A DNA stretch of 64,000 bases from Luteolibacter rhizosphaerae. Lineage in GTDB: Bacteria; Verrucomicrobiota; Verrucomicrobiia; Verrucomicrobiales; Akkermansiaceae. The stretch is from contig NZ_JAPDDR010000003.1 of assembly GCF_025950095.1 (NCBI RefSeq), positions 372,001 through 436,000 of the forward strand, written 5' to 3'. A program made the position numbers and the translations under genes. Of the stretch, positions 16,572 to 37,400 are shown in pieces (positions within the stretch are counted from its first letter, which is position 1; each line of letters begins with the position of its first letter). The notes below the pieces were generated by a model, which saw only the letters and a list, made by a program, of their open reading frames with translations, did no database searches and was not told the origin of the DNA.

Positions 16572-19553
16572 ATGAACTCCCGTATCAACCCGAACCACAG
16601 CAGGCGGCGGACATGGAGTAGAGCCGCAGCAGCCACAGCGCTGATCACCCTCGGCATCGTCTTCGTGCCGCGCGGTGAGAAGAACGAACATGATCCCGTC
16701 GCGACTCAGGCGAAAGCCTCGGCGCGGCCCGACAAGCCCGCACCTCCCGATCATGAGAAGGAAATGCGGCGGCTCACCGACCTTGTCGAGAAAGGCAAGG
16801 CCGCCATCCCGCTTGCGCAATTGCCTGCCGATAGTCCTCCGGTGCCCACCGCGGTGCCCGAGCGTGAACTCACCGCAAGCGCTTGGCTGAAGGACCCTCA
16901 TCCGGCGATGCAGGATTTCGCCGCGTGGGCTCAACGCTACCTTGCGACCTCGGAAGCCGGCCGCAGCCTGCTTGAGGAAGAGGGTATCGCTGCCGCCACG
17001 GCACGTCGTGACGCGCTCGAAGCTCAGATCGGCTCGGATCCGCGGCGCGCGCTCGCCAATGCCGTGCCTCTCAAGGTCCGCGATCAACTTCCAGCCTCGA
17101 TCCAGGCGCTTCTCGAATCCCGTGTCGATGGTTTCGGGGATCTCTCGATACTGAACGTGATGGCGGTTCCCGGTGGCGAGCCGATTCCGCCGGCCGATCG
17201 TGTCGCTGTCGATGGTAACTTCTACGAGGCCTTCCGCTACGGCAATCGCGAGAACGTCTCGTGGATGCGGGACATCTCGCTGCACGGCATCGTCCTCGAT
17301 AACAAGATGGCTGTCCTCGATAGCCCGGTGCGGATGCTCGAAGAGGGTGAATCGCTTGACGGCGAGGTGGTGAACGAAAGCTGTCCGGTCTCCGGCGAGA
17401 CGGTCGCGAAGGCGGGAACAGGAATCGTGCCGCAAGGCAGTAGCACCCTCTTCCAGCTCGGCCGCGGTATCTATGAAGTCTGCGAACCGGAACACGTGAT
17501 CAATGTGGAATCCGGGATCGTGGCGAGCGAGAAGGCGAACGAGCCTACCGGCCAAACGCTTGCGGATCTCGGCCTGCACACGCTGTGCATGCCCAAGCCG
17601 CAGGCACTGGGAGACAGTGCGGTGTCGGGTTCGGTCGGCTATCTCGGCAAGCCGCCGACCAGCATGACCTTCGGCGGGAAGAAGATCCTGATCATGCGCG
17701 TGCAGGCAAACGACACCGGCTTTCCGGCCAATGGCAGTCCCACCGACTTCAACAACATGGTCTACGGCGCCGGCGGCTTCGATGTCCGCATGCGCCGCAT
17801 CTCCTACAACAACACGTGGATTTCGCAATCCGACGTGACGCCGGTGATGACCCTGCCGCAGCCGCGAACCTACTATGTGGGCAATCCCCTCGGCGCCGGC
17901 TACGACTGCAACCGCTGGATCACGGATGCCAAGAATGCCGCGCAGGCGTTGGGCTACAATCTCTCCAGCTACGCGCAGCTGATCGTCGCGCACGAAAGCT
18001 ACAATACCGGTGCCGCCGGTCTGGCATGGGCGGGCTACATCTTCCTCAATGGTTTCTTCGGCGTGGAGGTGACGTTGCACGAATACGGGCACACCTTCCG
18101 GCTGCCGCACGGGAACTCCTGGTACGCGACGGATGGCAACCCGATCTCCGCGAGCAAGCAGCATCGCGAGTATGGCGATGCCGCGGACCCGATGGGCAAT
18201 GCCTGGGGTGCCAACCAGTACAACAGCTTCAATCCCTACTATAAAAACATCTGTAGCTGGCTCCCCGACAGCGCGGTCCAGACCGTGAATCGCAGCGGCA
18301 CCTATCGTGTCTATCAGCACGATGGCTCGACGGCGCTGAATCGCACCGTGGCCATCAAGATCGGCCGCGACTACGAGTACAACTATTGGCTGGGCATCCA
18401 TGGCGATCCGATCGCCCAAGGCAACTTCAACAACGGCGTGGCTGTTTATGCGGTGTCCTCGTTCAAGTTTTCGGATAGTCACCTGCTGGACTTGAACAAC
18501 CCGGGCGATGATAACCGGGACAATGCCCCGCTCGCGGTGAACCAGACCTGGTATGACTCGGCGGCGGATCTCACGATCAAGACCGTCGCGGTGGGAGGTA
18601 CGAATCCCAATCGTTATGCGGATGTGCAGATCACCTTCGGTCCGCGCAATACCGCGAACTATCGTCCCTTGGTCAGCGGCGGGGTCTATCGCTTCAAGAA
18701 CCGCAACAATGGCAAGTATCTCGGCATCGCCGGGAATAGTTCGGCCAACGGCGTGCCACTGACGGTATTCAACGCAACGAACACCGCTGCGGAAAACTGG
18801 GTGGCTTGGCGCGAGAGCGATGGCAGCTATCGTTTCAACCACCAAGGCACCGACAAGTGGATGGACGTGGACAACAACGGCCAGGGCGATGGTCCCGAGA
18901 TCTGGCAATACACTGGAAACACCAGCGACGCGCAGCGCTGGTACATCGGCCAGAATCCCGACGGGCACATCTACTTCACCCACAAGGGCACGGACGGCAA
19001 GGTGATCGACATGGATCCCGGTGGCGTCAACGACGTGCATCAGTGGGGATGCTTCGAGGCCACTTGGCAGCAGTGGTATCCGGAGCTGGTGGGAATGAGC
19101 CCGGGCACCTACCGGCTTATCCCGCGTCATGCCCAAGCCCAATGCCTGGATATTTCAGGTGGTGGCACGAACAACGGCGCCGGCACCATCTTGCAGCAGT
19201 GGAATGCCAGCGCGAACCAGAGGTTCACCCTGAGCGATGTGTCCGGTTTCGCGGGCCGCATCCGGTTGACACCCACCTCCGCGACGGCCAAGGCGCTCGA
19301 TGTGAATGCCTCGGGCACTGCCAATGGCACCAAGCTCCAGCAGTGGGATTGGCTGGGCACCGGCAATGCCGCGCAACGCTGGGCCTACACCCGCACGGAC
19401 GGCAACTGGCTCCGCTTCACCCCGGATTGTGCGACGGGTAGCTGCATGGAAGTGAGCGGCAACGACAACCAGTTCGCCAATGGCAGCGTGGTCCAGCTCT
19501 GGCAATTCACCGGCGCGGTGGACCAGCAGTGGCGCTTCGCCGATTCTGACTGA
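16572..19553 (+). CDS. Secreted metzincin-like zinc metalloprotease with ricin-type lectin domains
   Basis: 993 residues. The N-terminus is Arg-rich and then hydrophobic (AAAATALITLGIVFV), so a signal peptide or anchor. A charged linker and a conserved-looking pro-region occupy residues about 60-360. The catalytic domain has HEYGHTFRLPH at about 503-513, fitting HExxHxxxxxH with Arg where metzincins usually have Gly. DPMGN (about 540) is a plausible Met-turn, recalling the M11 gametolysin group. Residues about 700-835 and 845-993 are beta-trefoil ricin-B-like domains with YLGIAGNSS, CLDISGGGTNNGAGTILQQWN and QQW repeats. The role is probably digestion of glycoprotein or cell-wall protein. A strong terminator follows the stop. 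Confidence 0.85.
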   Translation: MNSRINPNHSRRRTWSRAAAATALITLGIVFVPRGEKNEHDPVATQAKASARPDKPAPPDHEKEMRRLTDLVEKGKAAIPLAQLPADSPPVPTAVPERELTASAWLKDPHPAMQDFAAWAQRYLATSEAGRSLLEEEGIAAATARRDALEAQIGSDPRRALANAVPLKVRDQLPASIQALLESRVDGFGDLSILNVMAVPGGEPIPPADRVAVDGNFYEAFRYGNRENVSWMRDISLHGIVLDNKMAVLDSPVRMLEEGESLDGEVVNESCPVSGETVAKAGTGIVPQGSSTLFQLGRGIYEVCEPEHVINVESGIVASEKANEPTGQTLADLGLHTLCMPKPQALGDSAVSGSVGYLGKPPTSMTFGGKKILIMRVQANDTGFPANGSPTDFNNMVYGAGGFDVRMRRISYNNTWISQSDVTPVMTLPQPRTYYVGNPLGAGYDCNRWITDAKNAAQALGYNLSSYAQLIVAHESYNTGAAGLAWAGYIFLNGFFGVEVTLHEYGHTFRLPHGNSWYATDGNPISASKQHREYGDAADPMGNAWGANQYNSFNPYYKNICSWLPDSAVQTVNRSGTYRVYQHDGSTALNRTVAIKIGRDYEYNYWLGIHGDPIAQGNFNNGVAVYAVSSFKFSDSHLLDLNNPGDDNRDNAPLAVNQTWYDSAADLTIKTVAVGGTNPNRYADVQITFGPRNTANYRPLVSGGVYRFKNRNNGKYLGIAGNSSANGVPLTVFNATNTAAENWVAWRESDGSYRFNHQGTDKWMDVDNNGQGDGPEIWQYTGNTSDAQRWYIGQNPDGHIYFTHKGTDGKVIDMDPGGVNDVHQWGCFEATWQQWYPELVGMSPGTYRLIPRHAQAQCLDISGGGTNNGAGTILQQWNASANQRFTLSDVSGFAGRIRLTPTSATAKALDVNASGTANGTKLQQWDWLGTGNAAQRWAYTRTDGNWLRFTPDCATGSCMEVSGNDNQFANGSVVQLWQFTGAVDQQWRFADSD

Positions 19554-20224: not shown

Positions 20225-22963
20225 ATGCTCAGCGGCCCTTTGGAAAGCCAGCCCGACATCCACGGATTCTTCGACGACGAGCTCTGGAAAGAGCGCTTCG
20301 AAGAGGAGTGCGCGCAAGCCGGGCATCGGCTGCGGCCTAAGGTGCGCGAGCTGAGTGGCGATTGGGTGGATGCGGATAGTTTCACCCTCAAGGCGAGCAT
20401 TGCGGGCGAATCCTGCGAGGTGTCCCTCTGGCCCTCCGGCAGCGACTGGGATTTCGAGAGTAACTGTAGCTGCGAGACGGGCCGCTTCTGTGCGCATGCG
20501 GCGGCCCTCCTCGAAGAAGCGGGAAAGGGGAAGAATCTCTCCCGCCTGCTCGACGGCCTTTCGGCACGCACAACGGCGCCCTCGTCGTCTGCGGTTTCTA
20601 CGATTGCTCCTGAAGATCTTCCCCACGTCGAGTTCAAGCCGGGCTTCGTGCTCACGATCCTTCGCGAGCCCACCGAGACGAAGGTCGTGCGGTTGCTGCT
20701 TCAGGCGCTCAAAATCCCGGATGCCGGCGACTGGGTCGTCGCGCGTCCCCACGCGATCTACGGTGAACATCGTATCCCGCTCGGCGGCATTCCCGGGCCT
20801 CGTGAACACCGGGTCGATACCTCAAAGGGGCCGCTGGTCATCCGCCGTGATATCGCGGCGGAGATGAATGCAATCCTTACCCTCCAGCAGGCCGGTCTCG
20901 CCAGTCTTGCGGGGCATTCGCAGTTCCGCTTCTTGCTCGGGTTGGCGGGGAAAGGGAAGCAAGGCACGCCCTCGGAGGCTGGCCTCTGGTTCCCGAATCC
21001 CAGCCATGGCTCCTTGGCGGAATTCTGGCCATGGCTGCGCGCGACCGGTGCTGCTTCCTTGGAAGCCGCAGGTTGGGCCGTGGTCTTCGATCCGGAGGTC
21101 GGGCATGAGGTGATCGACCTCGATCCCGATGGCTTCATCTACACCCTCGAAGATGATGGCTCGGGATGGTTTCATCTTTCCGTGGGCTTCGAAGTCGGCG
21201 GCAAACAACTCGATCTCCTTCCCATCCTCGCCCAGCTCCTCGACCGCGGTGCGATGGAGACCACGCTTGAGTTTCCGGCGGACGGACATTTCCTGCATCA
21301 TCTCGAGGACGGTCGCGCCTTGCGCCTGCCTTCCGCGCGCATCCGCAAAATTCTGAAGCAGTTCGCCGCGTTGATCGATCCACGCCGCTTCAAGGGCAGC
21401 AAGCTCCGGCTCCACCCGCTCGACGCGGCGGCCATCGCCACCTCGGAAGAGCTCGGCATCCAGGCGCCCGAACGCTTGGCCGAACTCGCGCAGAAGCTGG
21501 GGAATTTCGCCGGCATCGAGAAGATCCCTTCTCCCCCCGGCATCAAGGCCGAGCTCCGGGAATACCAGGCGGAGGGCTACCACTGGATGCAGTTCCTCGC
21601 GCGCCATGAGCTGCACGGCATCCTCGCCGATGACATGGGTTTGGGCAAAACGCTCCAGACCATCACCCACATCCTCGCCGAGAAAGATTCCGCCCGCTCG
21701 AAGGGCAAGCCGGCCCTGGTCGTCGCACCGACCAGCGTGGTGCCGAACTGGCGGGCGGAGGTGCAGAAGTTCGCGCCCTCGCTCCGCATCCTCATGCTGG
21801 ATGGACCGCAGCGTAAGAAGTACTTCCGCTCGATCCCTTACGCGGATCTCGTCCTCACCTCCTACGCTCTGATCCAGCGGGATATCGACAAGCTCAAGGA
21901 ACACTCCTTCCACCTCGCCGTTCTCGACGAGGCACAGTACGTCAAGAATCCCGCCTCCAAGATGGCACAGGCCGTCTGCCAGCTCGATGCCCGCCATCGT
22001 CTCTGTCTCTCGGGAACTCCGGTGGAGAATCACCTCGGCGAACTTTGGAGCCTCATGCGCTTCCTCATGCCGGGATTCCTCGGCGGGCAAGAGGACTTCA
22101 ACCGCCGCTTCCGCACTCCTATCGAACGCGATGGCGATGAAGACCGCCGCGCCGCGCTCAAGACACGCGTCGCCCCGCTCATTCTCCGCCGGACGAAGGA
22201 CCAAGTCGCGAAGGAACTGCCTCCGAAAACCATTCTCATCCACCCGGTCGAGCTCAATACCGGTCAGAAGGACCTCTACGAAACCGTGCGCGCCACCATG
22301 GACAAGCGCGTCCGCCAGGCGATCGCGATCAAGGGCCTCGAGGGATCGCGCATGGTGTTCCTGGAAGCTCTGCTCAAGCTCAGGCAGATCTGCTGCGAGC
22401 CGAAGCTGCTCAAGTTCGAAGGCGAATCGAAGCTCGAAGCCGAAGCCGCTGGCTCGGCGAAGCTCGATTACCTCGTCGAGCTATTGGAGACATTGATCGA
22501 GGAAGGCCGTAGGATCCTTCTCTTCTCCCAGTTCACCTCCATGCTCGAGATCATCGAGGGCCTCCTCCAAGTACGGAAGATTCCGTACCTCAAGCTTACC
22601 GGGGAGTCCAAGAACCGCGGCGAGTTGGTAGAGAAGTTCCAGGGCGGTAACTATCCAGTCTTCCTGATCTCGCTGAAGGCGGGTGGCACCGGCCTCAATC
22701 TCACCGCGGCGGATACCGTGATCCACTACGATCCATGGTGGAACCCCGCCGCCGAGGCCCAGGCTACCGACCGCGCCTACCGCATCGGGCAGACCCAGCC
22801 GGTCTTCGTCCACAAGCTCATCTGCCAAGGCACCGTCGAGGAACGCATCCACCAGCTCCAAGCGAAGAAAAGCCAGCTCGCGGACTCGCTTCTCTCCGAC
22901 GCCGCCCGTGCTGCCGCTCCGGACGAGATCACTTTGTCCGCCTTGCTGGCTCCTTTGGGTTAA
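20225..22963 (+). CDS. SWIM zinc-finger SNF2-family helicase
   Basis: About 912 residues from ATG 20225. The frame stays open to an ATG at 20129 that would overlap the divergent gene's start. Near residue 85 there is a SWIM motif (CSCETGRFCAHAAALLEEA, CxC...CxH). A bacterial SNF2-associated region follows, then the helicase core: LADDMGLGKTLQTI (Walker A), VVAPTSVVPNWRAEV, VLDEAQYVKN (DEAQ), LCLSGTPVENHLGELWSLM. The C-terminal lobe has LFSQFTSMLEII, ISLKAGGTGLNLTAADTVIHYDPWWNP and TDRAYRIGQTQPVFVHKLI. Proteins of this type remodel DNA-protein complexes; the bacterial substrate is not established. Confidence 0.92.
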   Translation: MLSGPLESQPDIHGFFDDELWKERFEEECAQAGHRLRPKVRELSGDWVDADSFTLKASIAGESCEVSLWPSGSDWDFESNCSCETGRFCAHAAALLEEAGKGKNLSRLLDGLSARTTAPSSSAVSTIAPEDLPHVEFKPGFVLTILREPTETKVVRLLLQALKIPDAGDWVVARPHAIYGEHRIPLGGIPGPREHRVDTSKGPLVIRRDIAAEMNAILTLQQAGLASLAGHSQFRFLLGLAGKGKQGTPSEAGLWFPNPSHGSLAEFWPWLRATGAASLEAAGWAVVFDPEVGHEVIDLDPDGFIYTLEDDGSGWFHLSVGFEVGGKQLDLLPILAQLLDRGAMETTLEFPADGHFLHHLEDGRALRLPSARIRKILKQFAALIDPRRFKGSKLRLHPLDAAAIATSEELGIQAPERLAELAQKLGNFAGIEKIPSPPGIKAELREYQAEGYHWMQFLARHELHGILADDMGLGKTLQTITHILAEKDSARSKGKPALVVAPTSVVPNWRAEVQKFAPSLRILMLDGPQRKKYFRSIPYADLVLTSYALIQRDIDKLKEHSFHLAVLDEAQYVKNPASKMAQAVCQLDARHRLCLSGTPVENHLGELWSLMRFLMPGFLGGQEDFNRRFRTPIERDGDEDRRAALKTRVAPLILRRTKDQVAKELPPKTILIHPVELNTGQKDLYETVRATMDKRVRQAIAIKGLEGSRMVFLEALLKLRQICCEPKLLKFEGESKLEAEAAGSAKLDYLVELLETLIEEGRRILLFSQFTSMLEIIEGLLQVRKIPYLKLTGESKNRGELVEKFQGGNYPVFLISLKAGGTGLNLTAADTVIHYDPWWNPAAEAQATDRAYRIGQTQPVFVHKLICQGTVEERIHQLQAKKSQLADSLLSDAARAAAPDEITLSALLAPLG

Positions 22964-23565
22964 AGTCTGCGGAGCGCATCGGTAATCTTCTTCTGAACTT
23001 CAGCCCACGAATCTCCATTCAGTGAGATGGGATCGGGTTCCAGTTCCGCATCCTCGAACCAAGCCATGCTGCGCAGGACGATAAAGCGGTCCGAGTTCCG
23101 GTACTTGCTTTCGAAGTCCGTCATCATTTCGTCGAGCGACCGATGTTTGAGTAGCTCGCATAGATCGAAGAAATCCTTCTTCGATCCCCGGTTTGCAATC
23201 GCGTTCAGCTTCATCGCCGTCACGTCGCGGATCGAAAGCATCGCAACGCCATCGATGTGATCAGGCTTCGCGAGGAGGGGGTAAGCGTGACGAAGGAAAT
23301 CCAGCTTCACACCGCCTGCATCCAGCGTCAGCGTTCCCGTGCTCCGGCCAACCACGTTCGCACCTGCCATGTTCAAGGCCGTTTGGAGTTGTTCGGGTTC
23401 AAAAGTATCCGTGGCAAAGAAATCAAGGTCCACGGAAAGGCGATGCCCGAAACGCAAGGCGAGCGAGGTTCCTCCCCCAAGCTGGAAAGCACGCAACTCC
23501 TCTCGCGTGGCAAGTTGCTCTAGCAAGAGCCGGACTGCGACGGGGATGGCATCAAGGTGGAGCAT
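22960..23565 (-). CDS. AbiEii/AbiGii-type nucleotidyltransferase (putative toxin)
   Basis: 201 residues. The nucleotidyltransferase core is visible: FQLGGGTSLALRFGHRLSVDLDFF, that is GGxxS at 30-34 and DxD at 46-48. KLDFLRH follows as the third strand and LSIRDVTAMKLNAIANRGSKKDFFDLCELL as the helical part typical of AbiEii. In type IV toxin-antitoxin and abortive-infection systems this fold transfers nucleotides, for example onto tRNA. Its start overlaps the small upstream gene by 46 bases, so the two form one cassette. It ends against the 3' end of the SNF2 gene (4-base overlap). Confidence 0.88.
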   Translation of the reverse strand: MLHLDAIPVAVRLLLEQLATREELRAFQLGGGTSLALRFGHRLSVDLDFFATDTFEPEQLQTALNMAGANVVGRSTGTLTLDAGGVKLDFLRHAYPLLAKPDHIDGVAMLSIRDVTAMKLNAIANRGSKKDFFDLCELLKHRSLDEMMTDFESKYRNSDRFIVLRSMAWFEDAELEPDPISLNGDSWAEVQKKITDALRRL

Positions 23566-23860: not shown

Positions 23861-25927
23861 CTAGTTCCGCTTCCGGAACTGGCCCAGAGCGGAGGGCACC
23901 GTTCCCCACACTCGCGCTAGAACGGATCTCCCGCCGCCATCGCCTCGTTCTGCAGCGAGCAGAATCCGGGTGCCGCTCTTCTCCACGTCCCATGTTCCGC
24001 TGGATTCCCCTGGCTGCCAACCCTGTGCGAGAAGGTCCTCCAAAAAGTCTTCCCTCGATGCTCCATTGGCGGACCAAAGGGAAAACTCGATACCCGGTCC
24101 CAATCCCGACGAGTCGTCGTGGCTCTTGGCAGGGCGCCACCATCCACGGCAGCGAAACCAAGCCCGGATCCGCGGTTGTAGGTTGGAGACCAGATCGAGC
24201 TGTGTTCTCGATAAAAGATTGTCGAACCGCGTATCCAGGGGGCGCAGCGGCTGCATGCGATCCACCACGCCCTGATAGCCCGCCAGACCCATCTGCCCGT
24301 AGTAAATGATCGAGCCCTCCACCGCCCTCACCGGTCCGCCCGAGTAGACAAAGCCCTCCCACTTCGCATCACCATTGGAGGTGAAACGCCGCGGATGCTT
24401 CGCGATCAGCAGCGCCTCCGCCTTGCCGTAGCCGATCTGCTGCCGCAGGTAGCCGCGCAGCGCAGGCCGGCGGTGATGCCACACGAAGGCGGTCGGCGCG
24501 AAGCCCAGCCGGTAGCCCTTGTCCCGCAGCCGCCAGCAGAAATCCACATCGTCGCCCGCGGTCTTGAACTGCGGATCGAATCCGCCGATGTCGAAGTACG
24601 CCGTACGTCGTACCGCGATGTTGCAGCCGGGTAGATGCTCCGCCTCTTCGTCATCCAGCATCACATGGCTGGGAGCACCCGGCGCTGCCGCGACCACGGC
24701 CTCCACCGCATCTTTCGGTGGCGGTGGTAGGTTCGGCCCGCCGACCCCATCCCAGCCTTTGGCGAAGGCGGTCGCCAGGCCTGCCAGCCAGTCGCGATCC
24801 GGCTCGCAGTCGTCATCCGTGAAGGCCACGAACTCGCCCGTCGCCGCCTCTGCCCCGGCATTGCGCGCGGCGCTCAGGCCTGAGGGCTCCAGCCGGATCA
24901 GGATCGCGCCGGGGAATTGCTTCTCCACCAGCCCGGCAGTGCCGTCGCTTGATCCGTCATCCACCACGATCACCTCGTGCGCGGACAGCGACTGCTTCTC
25001 CAGCGCCTTCAGACAGGCCCCGATCCGCGGCCTGCCATTCCGCGTGCACACGATCACCGAGATCTTCGCATCCGGGGTTATCGGGGGCTTCACGGCAAAG
25101 GCCTTGGCCACTGCCGGGAGTGCCGGCTTCGGCCGGCCATCGCGATCGACCAGGCCGAAATCCCAGTCCTTCACCTCCAGCCCCGCATTCCACCAGCGGT
25201 CGCTCCACGCGTAGATCGTGAGCCCCGCCGTGCCTTCCTCTCTCATCGCACGGATGCCCCACGCGAGGGTCTCCGCCTGCCGTTCCAAGCCGTTGCGGCG
25301 GGAATCCAAGCCAAATTCCGAGATCATCACCGGACGATCTCCGGCGATGTGGTGGAGCCGCCGCAGATACTTCCGGAAAGCCCCCTCGTCCTCCAAGTAC
25401 ACGTTGAAGGCCGTGAAGTCGGCATTCTCGGGCTCGAGGTATTCCGTGCTCGGGTAGTTCCCGTAGCACCAGAGCAGTCCCGGCCGCAGTTCCTTTCCTA
25501 AGGTGATCACGCTCTCGAGGGCTTTCCGAACCTTCACCGGGCCCATCCATCGCACCAGGTCGGCAGGTACCTCGTTGGCTACGAATACCGCCGCCAGAGC
25601 CGGATGGTCCTCCAGCGGTCGCAGCGCCTCGGCCAGCGACACCTTGGCTGACGCCAGGATTCGCTCGTCCTTCAAGAAATCCACGGCTTGCGGCCATTTC
25701 AGCCCGCCCATCACCCGCAGCCCGTGGGCCAGCGCCGCATCCAGCAGATTGCGCGTCGGCATTTCGTACAGGCGCAGCGCATTGAAGCCCGCCGCGGCAA
25801 TTCCTTGGAAATCCGTGCTGAAGTCCTCCGGCCAGCCTCCGGGGAAGGGGCCGTAGGTCACGGCGCGCACGGCGATGCGGCTTCCTCCGGCACGGAAGAA
25901 TTTGCCATCGACGCACAGGGCCTCCAT
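23861..25927 (-). CDS. Glycoside hydrolase (clan A-like)-GT2 glycosyltransferase fusion
   Basis: 688 residues. Residues 1-275 look like a clan GH-A TIM barrel. The acid/base Glu is in FVANEVPAD (about 119) and the nucleophile Glu in MISEFGLD (about 204); FNALRLYEMPT and IYAWSDRWWN are further barrel strands. From about 288 a family 2 glycosyltransferase begins: ISVIVCTRNGRPRIGACLKALEKQ, VIVVDDGSSDGTAG, GLSAARNAGAE, FTDDDCEPD (DxD at 371-373), GCNIAVRRTAYFDIGGFD and DVDFCWRLRDKGYRLGF. A tail of about 120 residues is unassigned. No signal peptide is seen, so the hydrolase half appears cytoplasmic. It may build or trim a surface glycan. Divergent from glutamate dehydrogenase. Confidence 0.88.
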   Translation of the reverse strand: MEALCVDGKFFRAGGSRIAVRAVTYGPFPGGWPEDFSTDFQGIAAAGFNALRLYEMPTRNLLDAALAHGLRVMGGLKWPQAVDFLKDERILASAKVSLAEALRPLEDHPALAAVFVANEVPADLVRWMGPVKVRKALESVITLGKELRPGLLWCYGNYPSTEYLEPENADFTAFNVYLEDEGAFRKYLRRLHHIAGDRPVMISEFGLDSRRNGLERQAETLAWGIRAMREEGTAGLTIYAWSDRWWNAGLEVKDWDFGLVDRDGRPKPALPAVAKAFAVKPPITPDAKISVIVCTRNGRPRIGACLKALEKQSLSAHEVIVVDDGSSDGTAGLVEKQFPGAILIRLEPSGLSAARNAGAEAATGEFVAFTDDDCEPDRDWLAGLATAFAKGWDGVGGPNLPPPPKDAVEAVVAAAPGAPSHVMLDDEEAEHLPGCNIAVRRTAYFDIGGFDPQFKTAGDDVDFCWRLRDKGYRLGFAPTAFVWHHRRPALRGYLRQQIGYGKAEALLIAKHPRRFTSNGDAKWEGFVYSGGPVRAVEGSIIYYGQMGLAGYQGVVDRMQPLRPLDTRFDNLLSRTQLDLVSNLQPRIRAWFRCRGWWRPAKSHDDSSGLGPGIEFSLWSANGASREDFLEDLLAQGWQPGESSGTWDVEKSGTRILLAAERGDGGGRSVLARVWGTVPSALGQFRKRN

Positions 25928-28814: not shown

Positions 28815-30236
28815 CTAGCGCTTCCGCTTGCCCCGCGTGCCCGCCCACTCCCAGAGCTCCGTCAGTAACAGCCTCTCGCAAGAAGCCACCACGGCGGCCG
28901 CCGTGGTGTAGCACTTGGCTTCCATCAGCTCGGCCCGTTTCTCGGTGAGTTGATCCGCTACCTGTAGATACACCTTGGCCCGTCGCTTGTGTTCGAAGAG
29001 CGGGATCATCGCCAGACACCATGCGGCGATTGCGGGCAGTACCGTTGGCAAGAAGTTGAGGACGACCCGGTTTATCCCCTCCGGTACCTGCCATTTCCAC
29101 ACGCCCGCCGAGATCGCGGTGGCACCCAGGATCATCGCACCGATCGAGGTGATGCGGAAGAGTGTCTGGAACACGCGCAGACGTCGTGCCGCGAGGTGAC
29201 CTTTCTCCGTGAAGTAGCGGATCTGTCCGTCGAGCCTCTCTGCCAGATAGTGAACGCGGGCCGATCTCCAGTCTTGGCGCTCCCGGACCAAGTGCCAGGC
29301 CGAGCTCCGCAAAAAAGGCGCATCCTCATCGAAGAGATCCGCTGCAATGGGGCGCAATGGTGGCGCGAACGAATGTGATGCCAGCAGCGAGCGCAGTAGC
29401 TCGGCGTGGAGGCGGTCTTCCATCCACGCATCGCTGATCCGGAAACGTGCTCCCACCCACGGCAATGTTGCCGCGAGCGAGACGACCACGAACTTGATCG
29501 CGGGAGCCGCATTCTCCGCCAGCTTGAAGGCGACTAGAACCGCGGTCGCGATCGTCGCAAACTGGTTCAGCGAGATGGATCCGGCAGCGAACCAGCGCGA
29601 GCGCGGGGCGCCGTGCACGGCGCGTTGATCCAAGGTGTTGAAAAGTTTCTCCACGTTTGTTGCCGGTGGGAAAGCAGCGAACTCTTGATCGATCCAAGGG
29701 AAAGGTTTCGTTCCTTCCACCGGTCCGATCACTCCGCTACCCGCCTCGATGATCCGGAAAGGCAGCTTCCTCTCCCGTGCTTCGGAGATGGTCTCCGCGG
29801 TGCCGCCGATCCCGCGTGCCGGCTTGCCATCCCAGAAGAACAGCATCGCGTCGGAAACATCCAGGATCTCCCGCGCCGCCAGATGGTAAGCTTCCGGGGC
29901 GACTTCGTTTCCAGGTGCGATCTCAGTAAAGGTCGCGCCTTCCGTCAGCGCTTCCGCCCGAGCCCATTCCGCAGGATCGTCGAAGTCTTCTTGGAAGCGA
30001 TCCTTCGGGAAGGGCAGCACCACGCTGTAGGCCAGCCCCAGCTCCCGACAGGATTCCAGGAAAATCAAGTCCGCCCCCCCCGCGGCGCTTGCCCGGCCCG
30101 TCACCACCCCTTTCGCATGCTGGCAGAAATCCCGCAGCCCGGCGAGGATCGCCGTCTTGGTTGCCACCGCATCGGCAATCGTCCGGTGACCGGCAAACCC
30201 GATCACCCAGACGCGCTGGATCTTCCCTTCAGTCAT
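28815..30236 (-). CDS. SLOG-like nucleotide-sensor protein with four membrane segments
   Basis: About 473 residues from ATG 30236, which lies in ATGACTGA overlapping the patatin stop; a TTG at 30251 is the alternative. Residues about 5-180 look like a Rossmannoid SLOG domain: WVIGFAGHRTIAD, ASAAGGADLIFLESCRELGLAYSVVLPFP, LDVSDAMLFFWDGKPA and GIGGTAETISEA (glycine-rich ligand loop). Two hydrophobic pairs follow (about 225-261 and 361-415), with a soluble segment between and a Cys-containing helix at the end. This recalls SLATT/S-4TM pore-forming effectors that Burroughs, Aravind and colleagues linked to SLOG sensors. Probable role: membrane effector triggered by a nucleotide signal. It is last in a four-gene minus-strand operon. 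Confidence 0.75.
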   Translation of the reverse strand: MTEGKIQRVWVIGFAGHRTIADAVATKTAILAGLRDFCQHAKGVVTGRASAAGGADLIFLESCRELGLAYSVVLPFPKDRFQEDFDDPAEWARAEALTEGATFTEIAPGNEVAPEAYHLAAREILDVSDAMLFFWDGKPARGIGGTAETISEARERKLPFRIIEAGSGVIGPVEGTKPFPWIDQEFAAFPPATNVEKLFNTLDQRAVHGAPRSRWFAAGSISLNQFATIATAVLVAFKLAENAAPAIKFVVVSLAATLPWVGARFRISDAWMEDRLHAELLRSLLASHSFAPPLRPIAADLFDEDAPFLRSSAWHLVRERQDWRSARVHYLAERLDGQIRYFTEKGHLAARRLRVFQTLFRITSIGAMILGATAISAGVWKWQVPEGINRVVLNFLPTVLPAIAAWCLAMIPLFEHKRRAKVYLQVADQLTEKRAELMEAKCYTTAAAVVASCERLLLTELWEWAGTRGKRKR

Positions 30237-31344
30237 GGTCGAAGTGTTCAAGCTTCACCGCGTGCTCCGCATAGGTCGCCCCCATCTCACCGAGAAAGTC
30301 CATCAGCTCGATGTTATCCAGCGTGAAGCCCTTCTTGCTCACCTCCAGCGCGGCCTTCATCTCAGCCTCACCGATCGCCCGGTCATAGCGCGCGTAGAGA
30401 AACGCGGCTCGCGGGTTCTCGCGCACCAGCGTGCCCAGCTCGCTATCCAGCGGATCGCCGTAGCGGCATTCCCCTTGCTGGCGGCAGACCAGGTCCTGCA
30501 TCCATTGCGCCGATCCGATCAGCGCGGCGGGCAACGACTTCGCTTGCGCTAACAGATGCTCGACCAGTTTACCGCCGCGGCCGGTCTTCACTCGCCCCGT
30601 GCCGACGGATACCAGGCTCATCCGCTCCTTCCCGTCCGGCCATGCCAGCTTGTATTCCGGCAGCGTGGCCATCGTGTAGAGCAGGTAGGCAGGATTGTTG
30701 AAGGGTGTCACGCCCCCGTCCTCGAAGGCGAAGACATGCTTCTTTATGCTCCCATCGATTTGATCCGTGATCTCGATCACCTCCGGCGGGAAAAAGGTCG
30801 GCGCGGCTGTGCTCGCACGCACGATCTGCCACAGCGGCAGGTCCAGGTTGCAGCCCGGCTTGCTGCGATCGTTGTAGAGCGCGCGGGGATTGTTCGACAT
30901 CGGCCACGGTGAGCCAGTCGAAGCATTCCGCGTCACCACCAGCAGTAAGGTCCGAAGCTTCGAGGTTCCGAGTGTCGCCGGGGTGCCGTTGTTCTCGACG
31001 AAGAAGCTTCTCAGGAAATCGGAGATTGGTTCGCCATCGAAGCGGTTCTTGAAGATCGCCCCCAGCCCCGCCTTCGTGAACATCAGCTTGGAGTTCTCCC
31101 GATACAGCCGGATCACCTCGTTCACCGGCATGCCCCAGGAGAGGAAGGTGGCAATGATTGCTCCCGTGCTGGTGCCACCCATGTAGTGGAAGTGGTCGGC
31201 CAACACGAGGTCCGGCTTGCCGGTCTTCTCCCGCAACAGCGTTTCGATCCGTTTCGCGACTTCCAAGGAGAATAGCCCTCGGATACCCCCGCCATCGAAG
31301 GCAAGCAAGCGAGCGCGGCCGGAAGGGGGAGCCGTAAGATCCAT
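30229..31344 (-). CDS. Patatin-like phospholipase (putative membrane-degrading effector)
   Basis: 371 residues. All catalytic parts are present: oxyanion loop FDGGGIRGLFSL (17-26), nucleophile elbow GGTSTGAIIA (Ser59), and the catalytic Asp in FEDGGVTPFNNPA (Asp209). The middle contains APTFFPPEVI and VSVGTGRV, typical of the CapV-like and eukaryotic patatin branch. Such enzymes hydrolyse phospholipid acyl chains; in bacterial defence they destroy the membrane when activated. The start is 61 bases after the STAND ATPase stop, and the end overlaps the SLOG gene start by 8 bases. No signal peptide. It could also be a housekeeping lipase, but the neighbours favour a regulated effector. Confidence 0.92.
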   Translation of the reverse strand: MDLTAPPSGRARLLAFDGGGIRGLFSLEVAKRIETLLREKTGKPDLVLADHFHYMGGTSTGAIIATFLSWGMPVNEVIRLYRENSKLMFTKAGLGAIFKNRFDGEPISDFLRSFFVENNGTPATLGTSKLRTLLLVVTRNASTGSPWPMSNNPRALYNDRSKPGCNLDLPLWQIVRASTAAPTFFPPEVIEITDQIDGSIKKHVFAFEDGGVTPFNNPAYLLYTMATLPEYKLAWPDGKERMSLVSVGTGRVKTGRGGKLVEHLLAQAKSLPAALIGSAQWMQDLVCRQQGECRYGDPLDSELGTLVRENPRAAFLYARYDRAIGEAEMKAALEVSKKGFTLDNIELMDFLGEMGATYAEHAVKLEHFDHD

Positions 31345-31405
31345 GGGCGGGTTATCTAACGAATCAAACCGAGCAAGGCCAGAAAGGAACGAGAAATGCG
31401 AGGCT

Positions 31406-34400
31406 TCACTCTGCCTCCGGAAGCCCTCCCTCTTCAGGGACGGGGATGGCTGCCGGTGGTTCGCCCGCGGCTCGCTTGGCCGCGCTCAGGAGGGATTGCT
31501 TCAGCTCCTCCGGCCAGTCGATCCCTTTGACACTCTCTTCGGATCCCCACTCCGGGCTGAGCTCAAACAACTCCGCGAAGCTCTTGTCCGCCATCTCCAC
31601 CCGTTGCGTTTGCTCCGCTGCACAGACAAACATGGCCAGCGTCATTTGCTTCTGTTCCTCGGGGAAAGGGATAGTGAAACCATGTTCGAGGAAGATGCCC
31701 GCTTCTTCCGGTCGGCCGTTGGTGAGAAGCATCCACGCCGCATCCAGGGTGAAGCCGGCATCCTCGGGATAGCGGGCCTTGCCCCGGTTCAAAAGCTCGA
31801 TCGCCGCCGCGGGCTGCATGTCTTCCAAGACGCAGCGAGCCGCCTCCAGGTAGTCGGAGGAGATCACCGCCTTGCCTTCCGTGTCGAAGAGCTGCACCCA
31901 GCGGGCGTATCCGCCGGTGAAGTCACCGGCCGCCATGAAGTTACGGGCTTCGATCCGCAGGCAATCCGCGTTCGGTGCCCCGGCCAAGCGGGCACGCTCG
32001 ACCATTGCCGATACCTGTGCATCAGCGGTCGACTCGTAGGCAAGTTGCAGGGCGCAGTGAACCATCGCGTCCCGCACCCGCTTGATCCCGAAGGTCGCCG
32101 TGGTCTCCGGTGCCAGCAGTCGCGTGGCCAGCTCCTGAAGTTGCTCGACGGATGCCTCCGGGTCCGGCTTTAGCGAGGCGACCTGTTGGTCGAGTTTCCC
32201 CATGAACTCATGGGTCTCCTTCCATGGCAGCGCTGCCTCCCAGCCGTTCGTGTCCGTGTAGTCGAGCGTCGCTTGGATGTTCGGCACCTCATCGGGCCAG
32301 ATGCCGAATACCTCGGCATGCTTGCCGGATGCCCACAGCGCCCTCGCCCCCACGTATTCGGCGATCGGGGCGGGTAAATCCTTCGCAAGGGAAAGCGCTG
32401 TCGAGATCACTGCGGCATCGTCCGACTTCAGCGCCGCATGCAACGCGGCGAAGCCTGTCGGACCATGTCCATCCGCGGCCTTCATCGCCCGCTCGATGCG
32501 CTGTTGCAGCGAGCCGCCGGGTAGTGCCAGCCATGCCTTCCAAAGCCATGGAGAAGCCAAGCGATCCAAGGCCCTGTCGATCGCTTCCGGCGCGGTGGTA
32601 TCGAGGCGAGCAGCGATCAGGAAATGAGCTTGTGCGAGATCGAGCTCGGCATCTGCGGGGATCTTCCCTTGTAGGAAAGCCTGCGCCTCAGGCATCTGTC
32701 CCCGCAAGGCCAAGGCCTCGGCGTGATGGATCGCGTTGCCATGAGACGGCTCCTTCTCGAATGTCGCCTGGGTCTCCGCAACCTTTGCGTCCAGCAAGGT
32801 CACGGCCTTGGCTCTCCCGGGCAGTTCGTCGATCACCACTCGCCGCCAGTCGCGCATGTCTCCTTCATTCAGCGCCTCGCGCATCAGCTTCAGCGAATCG
32901 GCGTCCAGTTGCTCGAGTGCCTTGAGATCCAGCCCGGGAAACTCGTCGTCTTCCACGCCCTCCGCGAGTTCCTTGCCAAGCCGTGCCGGATCGGTGCGAG
33001 CAAGCAGCCAGGCTGCCTGGCTCGCCTCGCCCGCCGATCGCGGATCCCCTGCCAGCTGGTGGTAGGCGACCACCTCGTCATCATGCGGCAGCGGGTTCTG
33101 GGGATCGAAGTCGTCCTCCTCCACCGGATTCTCTCCGCGCTGCCACGCATAGAGCTTGGCGTCGGATCCGGCGATGAGACCACGCAGGTAAGTCCGGTAC
33201 CAGGCATTCTCGGACCCCAGATTGGCGGCCGAGCGCGCGATCTTCGGGCCCGCCCCCGGTTGGGAGGACAAACGCTCCCACAGGGGAACCCAGATTTCGG
33301 GCGACGCCGTACGCGGAGCCAGCGCGGCAATTCGATCTAACAGGACCTGCGCTCCCGGCACCACCGCTTCGAGATCGCCGCTGTCGATCCCGGCCGCCAG
33401 CTCACGCCGCCGTTCCGGGGAATAAGACATCATCGACCGGGATCCTTCCGCGAAGCCCGTTCCCGCCAAGGCTCCGGCGAGTGCCCGCACCGCCGCCAGC
33501 TGCTTCGGATCCAGTCCCGCCGGACGTGCCAGCGGGAGTATCGCTCCGTCTCCCAAAGAGAGGGCGATCGCGCCGTCCTTCTCCACGAACTCCATCGGCT
33601 TCCCCGGAGATGGAACTACCAAACCGGAGATCAATGCCCGCCCGTTCTTCAAGGACCAGAGATCCAACCTGCCCTCGCGACGGTATGCCAGCCAACCGCG
33701 TGTTGGCTCTTCCGCCCAGTCCTGCGGAAGATCGTTATCCCACCCGCTCCAGCGCTCCGCCACGCTCATCGGCAGCGTAATGATCCGGGAGAAATCTTTC
33801 TCATCGAAGAGATGCACTTCATCAGATGTCGCCACCGCCAGTGCCCCTAGCGATTCCACATGATGCAGCGAGAGAGACTCCACCACCGGGATCGTCGCAA
33901 CTCTTCGGAATCCCTTTTCCGATGCATCGGCAATCACCACTTCGCTGATTCCCATCGCGGCCACGCGATGCGTGTCTCCCAGGAAGATGAGCCCGCTGAT
34001 CTGATCCACCGGTTCCAGATCACTTGTTAGAGAGCCGCTGGCGGTATCGTTCACCACCATTCCGGAAAAGGAATACCCACCGCTTCCCGAGCTGTAGCCC
34101 CCTTGTACCACGAAGGACTCGTCGGCCGGACGCACCGCATACATCGGATACATCCAGTTCGGATGCGCCTCAAGCGACACGTCCTTGCCTTCCTTGTCCT
34201 TCAATCTCCAGTCGTGACCCCGGTGCTGCAGGTCCGAGTTCCTTCCCTTGTCTTCGGTCACCCAGCCGTTGTCACTCGTCGTTTCGTCCTCCTTCTTCTC
34301 CGCGCTCGGGAAGCTGTAACCGATGCGCGGCAGCACCTCGCGAATCTCCAAGGTCCCCGACGAGCTACCCACCGCCACACGGTTGCCCGAGAATGCCACG

Positions 34401-37400
34401 GATTCGATCTGCGCATCGGCGCGCACCGGTGCTCGCGGTGCCTGTTCAATGCCATTGATGTCTCTCGTCTCAAGTCGCGTGCCTACCACCTTCAGCGGCG
34501 GCGTGGAGTCCCGCGCATCACCCGCATAGTTTTCCCAGAACGGCGATAGCGCCCGTGCCCACGGAAAGCGCTCGGTGAGTGCTGTCGACCCGGTCCAGCG
34601 ATCATCCGCACCGTATCCCGCGCTCTGCAGCTCGATGTAGCCCTCCTCCGGCTTGGCCGCCACGGCATAGACTTCGCATGGTGACGAATCCTTATCCTCC
34701 CGTGTCATCGTCGCCAGCACTTGGCCTCCATCGGGACTGAAGACCGCGGCCTTGAAGGTGCTCAGGGTTGTCCCTCCCCGCAACACCGGTGCCGCGGGAT
34801 TGATCGGCATCTCTACCAACGATCCATCCGCGGAAACCACCCGCAAGCGCGTGGCGTCGAGCTGCGCCGCCAGCGGTGCCGGACCGCCGGAGATCGGCTC
34901 GGATTCACGGATCACCTTTCCCCGTGTAGTGTCGATGATCCGCCAGACATATGGCGAGGCTGCAGCGGCGTCCTCCTCCAGCTTCGCAGGAAAGCCGAGC
35001 AGCAACCCGTCCGGCGACCACGCGAAGCAGCTCGCGGGAATCGCATGTGCGCTAGACACGGGCAGACGCGCGATCATCCGCATCGTCTCCGCATCGCAGA
35101 GATCCGCATCTTCCAGGAATTTGTAAGCCCGCTGCAGGATCAAACGCTTGCCGCTCGGCGCCACCGAGAGATTCAGCGTCACTTCTCCCCAACTCGGGGA
35201 GATCATCCCTTCGATCGCGGTCTTCTCCAGATCCCAGCGCAGCGTCGTATTAAAGCCGGCACCGCTCGATGACGAATCCGTGGATGCGAAGAGCGTGTCG
35301 CGATCCGGTCCGAAGCTTAGAGCTCGAAGCGGCAGCGGATGCTTCAGGGTCAGCTCCGGGAAGTTCCATGCCGTATGCCGCAGCGTGCCTAATAGAAGCG
35401 CCTGCGCGTCCAGGTTCTCCGGATCGCTCTCCAGCGCTGCCAGCAGATAGGGCAGCGCCTCGTCCGATGCTCCGCTTGCCACCCGTGCCGCACCGGCATC
35501 GAAGTCTGCCGCTGCCAGAGAGCGCCGCGTTTCGGCCGCTGAGTTGTTAGCCTTGTCCTCGGCCACCTCCGCCTGCTGCTGCTTCTCTCTCGCGACCATC
35601 CCCAGAGCGCCCGCACCGATTGCAAGACCCGCAAAGACCACGGTCGCTCCTTGGAACATCCGTAGCTTCCGTCGCGCCCGGATCCGCGATACCCGCACCA
35701 GATCCTCCTCATCCTCGCTCAAACGGAAGACCCCGCTTGAGGTCACCCGCTCCGCCTCGGCCAGTCGGCCTTCTGTTAGATAAAAGCGCGTGGACTTCCG
35801 CCCGTCCGTCCACAGCCGGGTCGCATCCTCCAGCCGCCGCCGCGCCAGCAGCAGATCGCGGTGATCCTCGATCCATTGTTTCAGCACCGGCCAGTGTGTG
35901 ATCAGCGCCTCGTGCGCCAGCGTCACCACCGCGGCCCCGTTCTCCTCGCTCGTCACCAGCAGCTTCGCTTCCACGAATGCCCCGATGAATCCCGGTGCCC
36001 CCGGGTGCGCATCCTCTAACAGACTGCGCCGCGTCCTCCGCCGCGTTGCCGGGCCTTCGTTGCCCGTATCGATCGTCACCAGCTCGCCGAAGATCCGCTG
36101 CGCCGCCTCGCTCCGTGTCTCGGAGGGCAGTGCGTCGTAAGTCTCCTGCGCCCTTTTCGCGATCGCTCCAGCCAGCCCCCCCAGTTCCTCGTAGGCAGTC
36201 CAGGTCAGCACGTGATCGCGCCGCCGCTGATACAGCTCCTCCAGCGTGAACTCCAGCAGCGGCAGAGCATCATGGGCCTCCGCAGCGTCCTGATAGACCT
36301 GCTCGGAGAGATCGCGCCCGTTTTGCGGATGCCGCTCGAATTGCAGCCCCGCGGAAAGCGCCGGGTAGCGGATGATCTGGTGCAGCTCCGGCAGCTCCGG
36401 CGGGCTCAGGATGTAGCCGCCGCCATGCCGCACCAGTTGGAAGAGATCCCGGTGTTCCGGCACCCGCGGGAAGAACTCGCTCCGCATCGTCGCCACCACC
36501 CAGATCCGCCGGGACATCGCCAACGCCGCCAGCACATGGAACCACTGATCCTGCATCTCCTGGGTGACATCCTTCGCCGTGAAGATCTCCTCAAGCTGAT
36601 CTACTAGGATCAGCAGCTGCGCCGGCTTGCCCGCGCTCACCCGGTCGAGTGCCGCCACGATCGCCGCGATGCCGAAGGCGATTTCCTCCGGCTTGCCCAG
36701 AGTCCGCATCAGCCGCGCGCTGTCCCACACCGCCTCTGCCTGCTTCACCGGAGATTTCGCAGCCTGCTGCTGCTTCTTTCCCCGCTTGCCCTTCGCGGAT
36801 TTCGCGGATGGGGCGGGGGAGGGCGTTGAGGAAGAAGTATCGCGCAGTTTCGCCAGATCCGGCAGCGCATCCACCAGCGCCCGTGCCAGTGTCTCCAGCG
36901 GTGGCGAGGTGCCCTCTACCGGCCGCAGCCCGCAGCCGCACCAGGTGCCCACCTCCGGCAGGTAGCCTTCCGCCATCAGGCGCGGGGCCAGACCTGCCTT
37001 CATCAGCGAGGACTTCCCGTAGCCGGAGCCACCGTAGATCAGCAGGAAGGCATGCCCTGCCGCGTGATTTTCCTTTAGCTTCGCCAGCGCCTCGGAGATC
37101 GGCCGGTTCCGTCCGAAGAAAAGCGGCGCATCCTCGAACTCGAAGGCCCCCAGCCCCTTGAAGGGCGAGCCCTCCAGCGGCAGCGGTCGCACCGCCTCCT
37201 CCGCCAGCCCGCGCTGGAAATGAATATGCCGCAGCAGCAGCTTCTCCAGATGCTGCTCGAACAGCGATGAGAACTCGTCCACCGACTCATACGGCGAGAA
37301 GGCCCGGCGGATCGTCTTGTCCTTATTGAAGAAGAAGCGCTCGCAAAAGGCATCCAGCTTCTTCCTCTGCTCCTTCCGCGCCCCCTCCTGCGCCGGATCA

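Follow-up and report, generated by a model that had tools for sequence, protein, structure and literature searches.

Introduction

Polysaccharide-cutting enzymes and polysaccharide-building enzymes normally work in separate places. The closest analogue that we found in print for the protein described here is the pseudomonad "Orphan"/NdvB-type GH17-GT2 synthase, in which an N-terminal TIM-barrel glycosidase and a family 2 glycosyltransferase (GT2) share one chain, and the GH17 domain, modelled as periplasmic and as linked through membrane helices to a BcsA-like GT2 domain, is proposed to transglycosylate or cyclise the glucan that the GT2 domain makes (PMC10237404). For the two halves taken singly, the nearest described relatives lie elsewhere. 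GH157 is a family of endo-beta-1,3-glucanases, one member of which, BcellWH2_01931, is predicted to reside at the cell surface and is encoded within a glucan-use locus (PMC10229575). MftF, the mycofactocin oligo-glucosyltransferase, makes an oligo-beta-1,4-glucan and, at the 470 aa given in PMC7491314, is too short to also contain a glycosidase half of the kind reported below.

Here we analyse a gene from a 64,000-nucleotide stretch of Luteolibacter rhizosphaerae DNA (the window), whose product joins a clan GH-A glycosidase to a GT2 glycosyltransferase. This fusion is a real and conserved CAZyme architecture, and a search of literature that excluded most subscription journals and preprints returned no description of a GH157-like GH-A::GT2 protein. 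We propose, with a probability of about 0.5, that it is a cytosolic two-step glycan-assembly enzyme, the glycosidase half of which acts on the chain that the GT2 half builds.

Results

Gene and domain architecture

The fusion gene occupies positions 23861..25927 on the minus strand of the window and consists of a single open reading frame of 688 codons plus a stop. Its product begins with a GH157-like GH-A barrel (residues 1-282; 25082..25927, minus strand), delineated by AlphaFold2, Foldseek, VIA and profile comparison, which is joined directly, through a short linker, to a GT2 (GT-A) domain (residues ~287-545; 24293..25069, minus strand) recognised by PF00535, by a match to the MftF model below its cut-off, and by AlphaFold2. 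A small, family-specific alpha/beta domain follows at the C terminus (residues 566-688; 23864..24232, minus strand), as defined by alignment, fold prediction and hydropathy. The AlphaFold2 model, computed from the window protein and 67 homologues, has a mean pLDDT of 92.6 and a pTM of 0.91.

The initial annotation, made from the letters alone, had placed two hydrolase glutamates (E119 in FVANEVPAD and E204 in MISEFGLD) and a GT2 aspartate motif (D371-D373 in FTDDDCEPD) in one 688-residue chain, and had assigned that chain to clan GH-A and GT2; the barrel of the AlphaFold2 model and a PF00535 match at 4.3e-28 bear out both points and, together with a GH157 profile match at 3.5e-25, rule out chance occurrence of the motifs. 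It had also described the protein as lacking a signal peptide. The stop-to-stop frame comprises 692 residues and, with no more than four codons ahead of the ATG, leaves no room for a signal peptide. This description therefore stands, and both an overlooked upstream signal peptide and a wrongly chosen start are ruled out.

The GH half resembles GH157

The GH half (residues 1-282) yields no Pfam match at E 1 when the full protein is scanned, and a single sub-threshold match (E 0.028) when scanned alone. A 12-row profile of this half, in contrast, matches the GH157 structures 9fz9 and 9g5g in the PDB at 3.5e-25 and 9g4n at 6e-24, with the best GH2 match behind at 1.2e-10, and GH158 also appears among the PDB matches listed. 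Foldseek searches with the fusion model return chains of LaGH157 (9fz9, 9g4n, 9g5g) in the first six rows, followed by GH5_18 and GT2 chains. Identity to GH157 is about 18-20% in both Foldseek and VIA-align, and the fusion differs further from GH157 in its lack of an export signal and in its attached GT2 domain. In the profile alignment, E119 (25571..25573, minus strand), the presumed acid/base, and E204 (25316..25318, minus strand), the presumed nucleophile, fall in register with the glutamates of the NE and EFG motifs of LaGH157; 9g4n, an E224A mutant, reads AFG where the window protein has E204. DSSP analysis of the model places E119 immediately after strand 111-118, the fourth of the barrel, and E204 within strand 200-205, the seventh, which is the arrangement of clan GH-A.

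Structural superposition by VIA-align gives a Z of 30.5 against GH157 (288 aligned residues, rmsd 2.5) and of 29.7 against GH2 beta-glucuronidase/galacturonidase, a tie by the VIA rule, so that an exo-acting role may also apply to the GH half. By definition, GH2 enzymes carry their TIM barrel after sugar-binding and immunoglobulin-like domains; the barrel of the fusion starts at the N terminus with nothing before it, and the GH2 chains are matched only in their C-terminal barrel, from about residue 254. Among 12 GH members tested, eight match PF02836 (GH2) and seven match PF03198 (GH72; best 1.4e-11), while the window protein shows no match to PF03198 at E 1 in the full-protein scan. GH158 and GH72 enzymes act on beta-1,3-glucan, the GH72 beta-1,3-glucanosyltransferases being fungal and surface-anchored. 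No GH17 is named among the 60 of 142 PDB matches listed or among the Pfam matches. Judged by sequence profile and structure model, the GH half is thus a member of clan GH-A whose nearest solved relative is GH157.

The GT2 half resembles MftF

PF00535 aligns to residues 290-397 with 98.8 bits, against a cut-off of 23.3. Three motifs mark this half: the DxD-type metal/nucleotide motif D371-D373 (24809..24817, minus strand); the GDDVD stretch G458-D462 (24542..24556, minus strand), which we take to be the GT2 catalytic-base region, a putative role carried over from the family; and the H484xRR...QQxGYG501 motif (24425..24478, minus strand), which presumably occupies the place of the QxxRW motif of polymerising GT2 enzymes. 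The best NCBIfam GT2 model is that of MftF, TIGR03965, at 175.7 bits (1.5e-51). Identity as the mycofactocin glycosyltransferase is ruled out, since this score lies below the model's cut-off of 280 bits and MftC (TIGR03962) has no match in the organism's own genome, which is 98.05% complete; matches in 14 control genomes were all below the cut-off, leaving that search with no true positive control.

Both catalytic centres are invariant among close homologues

A contig scan for relatives of the fusion returned at least 591 pattern matches, at least 531 of them confirmed as relatives, from which the best 80 loci were kept. The alignment comprises 78 of these together with the window protein (79 rows); two loci were left out because their matches start within the GH half (L092 at residue 92, L095 at residue 64). 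R52, W78, N118, E119, Y155, N175, E204 and W245 of the GH half and D371, D373, D462, H484, R486, R487, Q496, Q497 and Y500 of the GT half are identical in all 79 rows. D324 and D460 are each present in 78, the exception being an N for the former and an unknown residue for the latter. Conservation of D459-D462 and of C435 is partly built in, because the DNA patterns used for the scan encode AEH[LVI]PGCN and AGDDVD[FVL]C; the GH residues, D371 and D373 lie outside these patterns. In a second set of 65 rows, which overlaps the first in part and contains some genes twice, E119, E204, D371 and D373 are again present in every row. The aligned loci are those most like the window, and distant members without one of the centres could be missed. 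Within this range, loss of a catalytic centre among homologues, which the initial annotation had named as one of two findings that would count against it, is not observed.

Compared with the window protein, homologues average 51.9% identity in the GH half, 58.7% in the GT half and 28.0% in the C-terminal part; in these sequence comparisons the two catalytic halves evolve at similar rates. The pattern of invariance bears on a reading in which the GH half serves mainly to bind or position a glycan and has little or no catalysis left. Inactive GH modules do occur in fused proteins, and the confident prediction of the whole chain, both halves included, is in keeping with such a module, yet the invariance of both glutamates and of the six other GH residues listed above makes this reading improbable.

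The C-terminal domain and membrane topology

The last ~120 residues, which had been left unassigned, form a distinct and faster-evolving domain. Modelled alone, residues 566-688 reach a pLDDT of 84.9 and a pTM of 0.58, and the best PDB match, to a CIPK regulatory domain at E 0.033, was taken as no assignment.

No hydrophobic segment is present in the window protein, in which the highest 19-residue mean hydropathy is 1.08. Hydrophobic segments occur beyond residue 540 in 25 of 78 homologues, near positions 580-625, and 20 of these have further ones near 750-850, while 53 have none; the C-terminal segments of these longer homologues are probably membrane segments. By a simple hydropathy measure, only L090, L105, L110 and L130 of the 78 show an earlier segment, which by match offsets falls inside the barrel or the GT core in the latter three and, in L090, spans the GH-GT junction and the first GT2 strand (281-300). 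To judge by the distribution of segments along the chain, the membrane probably does not come between the two catalytic halves, which would thus share one side. Nucleotide sugars are cytosolic, as is established for GT2 enzymes in general, and this shared side should therefore be the cytosol, making a cytoplasmic location of both halves probable on topological grounds.

The fusion thus parts from the NdvB-type synthases in having no membrane segment between its halves, and also in that its nearest GH relative is GH157 or GH2 and its GT2 half is MftF-like. An outward-facing GH half would nonetheless have a precedent in the pseudomonad GH17-GT2 proteins, for which such an arrangement is published as a model (PMC10237404), and the hydrophobic stretch at the junction of L090, one homologue in 78, could accommodate it. 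We consider this topology very unlikely for the window protein, which has neither room for a signal peptide nor a membrane segment, and whose longer homologues place their segments after the GT2 domain.

The fusion occurs in many Verrucomicrobiota and patchily beyond

Matches to the fusion at E < 1e-100 occur in 95 of 116 genomes, the organism's own included, and the best GT2-only match among those listed is far weaker (3.6e-31). Cut or split fragments account for at least four of the 95 (G004, G012, G100 and G115); of the remaining genomes, one (G082) has a GT fragment only, 16 have only weaker GT2-type matches and four have none. In a phylum-wide draw, 19 of 240 genomes, again including the organism's own, match at 1e-30. 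Searched alone, with at most 22 candidates scored in each of 106 related genomes (limit 1e-8), the GH profile gives 90 strong matches in 86 genomes, each within an open frame of 484 aa or longer and one of them a fragment (2.1e-27), and 13 weak matches at 6.8e-15 or worse; no standalone copy of the GH half was found among these candidates. Likewise, no called gene beside the GT2-only relatives L167 and L168 matches the GH half, the gene calls there being crude.

Two further matches in the organism's own genome (L002 and L003, contig C5) belong to an 873-aa open frame, which resembles the fusion in two separate GT2-type stretches and may encode a tandem GT2 protein. In genus g3 of the same family, five genomes (G019, G043, G052, G060 and G067) contain GT2-type matches only; since the fusion is present in most of the family's sampled genera, this suggests loss.

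The fusion is conserved in many Verrucomicrobiota and occurs patchily in a few other phyla. Seven records lie outside Verrucomicrobiota, in Rokuibacteriota, Cyanobacteriota (Xenococcus), Bacteroidota (Cognataquiflexum), Gemmatimonadota, Pseudomonadota (two) and Actinomycetota. Six of the seven are metagenome-assembled genomes, so their phylum labels may err, whereas Cognataquiflexum rubidum AIY15W carries a strain name. In a 43-row tree, the seven outside copies form a clade of 10 (support 96/98) with L052, L053 and L054, second copies from the window's own family, a grouping that suggests horizontal transfer. Sampling of the Xenococcus phylum recovered the fusion in 1 of 146 genomes, the seed itself (at most six candidates scored per genome in the rows listed), and sampling of the phylum of the gammaproteobacterial genome in 1 of 299, again the seed (at most three), depths at which copies may be missed.

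Mobile elements were considered as a source and rejected. None of 149 plasmid records matched by the whole protein covers 80% of the query, and the 20 listed match the GT2 domain only; the GH half has one weak archaeal plasmid match (22.6% identity), annotated as GH2 and located in a sugar-uptake locus. The 50 listed viral fold matches include no protein named as a hydrolase fusion, and those that carry a name are mostly GT2-type.

Genomic neighbourhood

Neighbouring genes, up to three per side, were called with a crude script, which makes the gene starts and some of the small genes unreliable. A divergent gene lies 109 bp upstream of the window gene, and on the downstream side an AbiEii-type gene follows after 295 bp in the same orientation; no sugar pathway is found among the listed neighbours of the window gene. 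The AbiEii-type nucleotidyltransferase (22960-23565, minus strand) matches PF08843 at 1.3e-17 and PADLOC AbiEii models at up to 7.6e-9. Elsewhere in the window, three adjacent genes (28815-37798, minus strand) look like an anti-phage defence cassette, encoding a 2130-aa protein with an nSTAND1 NTPase domain (PF20703, 3.3e-91), a patatin-like phospholipase (PF01734; PADLOC "Effector" models to 5.7e-34) and a SLATT_1 2TM-effector protein. A 993-aa protein (16572-19553, plus strand) has four ricin-type beta-trefoil stretches (PF14200) and a long N-terminal part that has no Pfam match at 1e-5 and appears metalloprotease-like by eye.

A cluster of MsbA-like ABC exporter genes accompanies the fusion in eight of 89 loci, all 11 of its genes lying one or two positions downstream on the same strand. 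These loci are L136, L146, L147, L152, L153, L149 (Methylacidimicrobium) and the own-family second copies L053 and L054; a ninth case is L165, a second fusion copy in the Rokuibacteriota genome. Counted by lineage, six of eight copies outside Verrucomicrobiota (L144 and L151 being the exceptions) have the exporter one or two genes downstream, whereas the window copy and most Verrucomicrobiota copies have no such neighbour. Pfam confirms ABC_membrane and ABC_tran in the two exporter genes tested, and MsbA-type models are among the best NCBIfam matches of three, all under cut-off. Further along lie hexapeptide-transferase and GT4-type genes (L136), a pyruvyl-transferase-like gene (L147) and an aldolase-II gene (L146). 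Of three cluster-5 neighbours taken by eye for glycosyltransferases, that of L152 passes the Pfam cut-off, that of L153 falls below it and that of L147 has no match. Nine neighbours tested from Verrucomicrobiota are mixed (cytochrome c, glycerophosphate-oxidase-like, methyltransferase, CBM96, Gfo/Idh/MocA, sigma factor, MORN and others), so that no glycan operon is seen in the window's lineage.

These neighbourhoods bear on whether the two halves act on different glycans, with the GH half recycling an oligosaccharide of imported or internal origin and the GT2 half using the released sugar or glycosylating something else. Sugar salvage is a common role of cytosolic GH-A and GH2 enzymes, GH2 exo-glycosidases are equally close to the GH half by structural score, and the missing sugar pathway at the window gene and the mixed Verrucomicrobiota neighbours are consistent with such a division. 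Against it, the GH half was not found without GT2 among the candidates scored in the 106 genomes, and in the loci read in detail the sugar-related neighbours are exporters and transferases, with no uptake system; we therefore regard separate substrates as unlikely, though less so than a non-catalytic GH half.

In many Verrucomicrobiales the fusion adjoins queA, which directly follows it on its own strand in 24 of the 83 loci with a downstream gene (17 within 30 bp) and is the next upstream gene, on the other strand, in five more. It overlaps or closely trails the fusion in L037, L039, L050, L093, L126, L141 and other Verrucomicrobiales, and one member checked matches PF02547 at 2.1e-118. Sugar-modified queuosines exist in animals, and the adjacency could mean that the fusion glycosylates this tRNA base; queA is, however, absent from the listed neighbours (three or fewer per side) of the window gene and of copies outside Verrucomicrobiota, and the GH half would have no obvious job there, making this the least probable of the readings considered. 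A comparison for identical last 300 residues gave one pair, L048 and L138, neither with queA. In all five loci that contain a cluster-17 gene (L041-L043, L133 and L134), this gene comes directly after the fusion; it encodes a 123-171-aa protein that is lipoprotein-like by eye, with a MORN_2 match in L041.

Discussion

Returning to the reading that we favour, a two-step assembly enzyme, the fusion would be cytosolic and, in many relatives, membrane-anchored. Its GT2 half would add sugars from a nucleotide-sugar donor, with the inversion expected of the family, to an acceptor at the inner membrane face, and its GH-A half would act on the same beta-linked chain as a transglycosylase or a trimming endo-glycanase, setting its length or branching. 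The product would then pass to a flippase or exporter, for which the MsbA-like ABC exporter found as the next or next-but-one gene in several phyla is a candidate. With no membrane crossing predicted between them, the halves probably share one chain as their substrate and act on it within the cell. We infer a shared substrate, a beta-1,3-glucan-like linkage, transfer over hydrolysis and a lipid carrier. The substrate is probably a beta-glucan-like chain, since the GH families concerned act on beta-1,3-glucan and MftF on beta-1,4-glucan, although the resemblance of the GT2 half to MftF, a beta-1,4-glucan maker (PMC7491314), argues by analogy against the beta-1,3 linkage. Transfer would be more economical than hydrolysis, as a synthase would lose product to a plain hydrolase in the same chain. 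By analogy with the GH17-GT2 synthases, the fusion may work in a similar way.

The initial annotation had suggested that a cytoplasmic pair could remodel or proofread a nascent glycan, or that the hydrolase half may be a transglycosylase. Remodelling or transglycosylation remains plausible in light of the GH157, GH158 and GH72 matches and of the exporter neighbours in other lineages, with the window's own neighbours lending it no support; nothing specific supports proofreading. A broader and more tentative proposal, which we hold to be possible but rather less probable than the two-step reading itself, is that these proteins constitute a widespread new class in which a GH157-like domain, obligately fused to GT2, transglycosylates or measures the chain in the cytosol before ABC export. 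If so, the cytosol, and not the periplasm, would be where chain length or branching is fixed.

The GH half would also be a candidate transglycosylase for making defined beta-glucans. For the Verrucomicrobiota, whose surface-glycan pathways are, to our knowledge, little known, the fusion would point to one such pathway, and a conserved single chain that holds a builder and a cutter with no membrane between them makes internal glycosidase control of glycan length or branching before export a testable idea.
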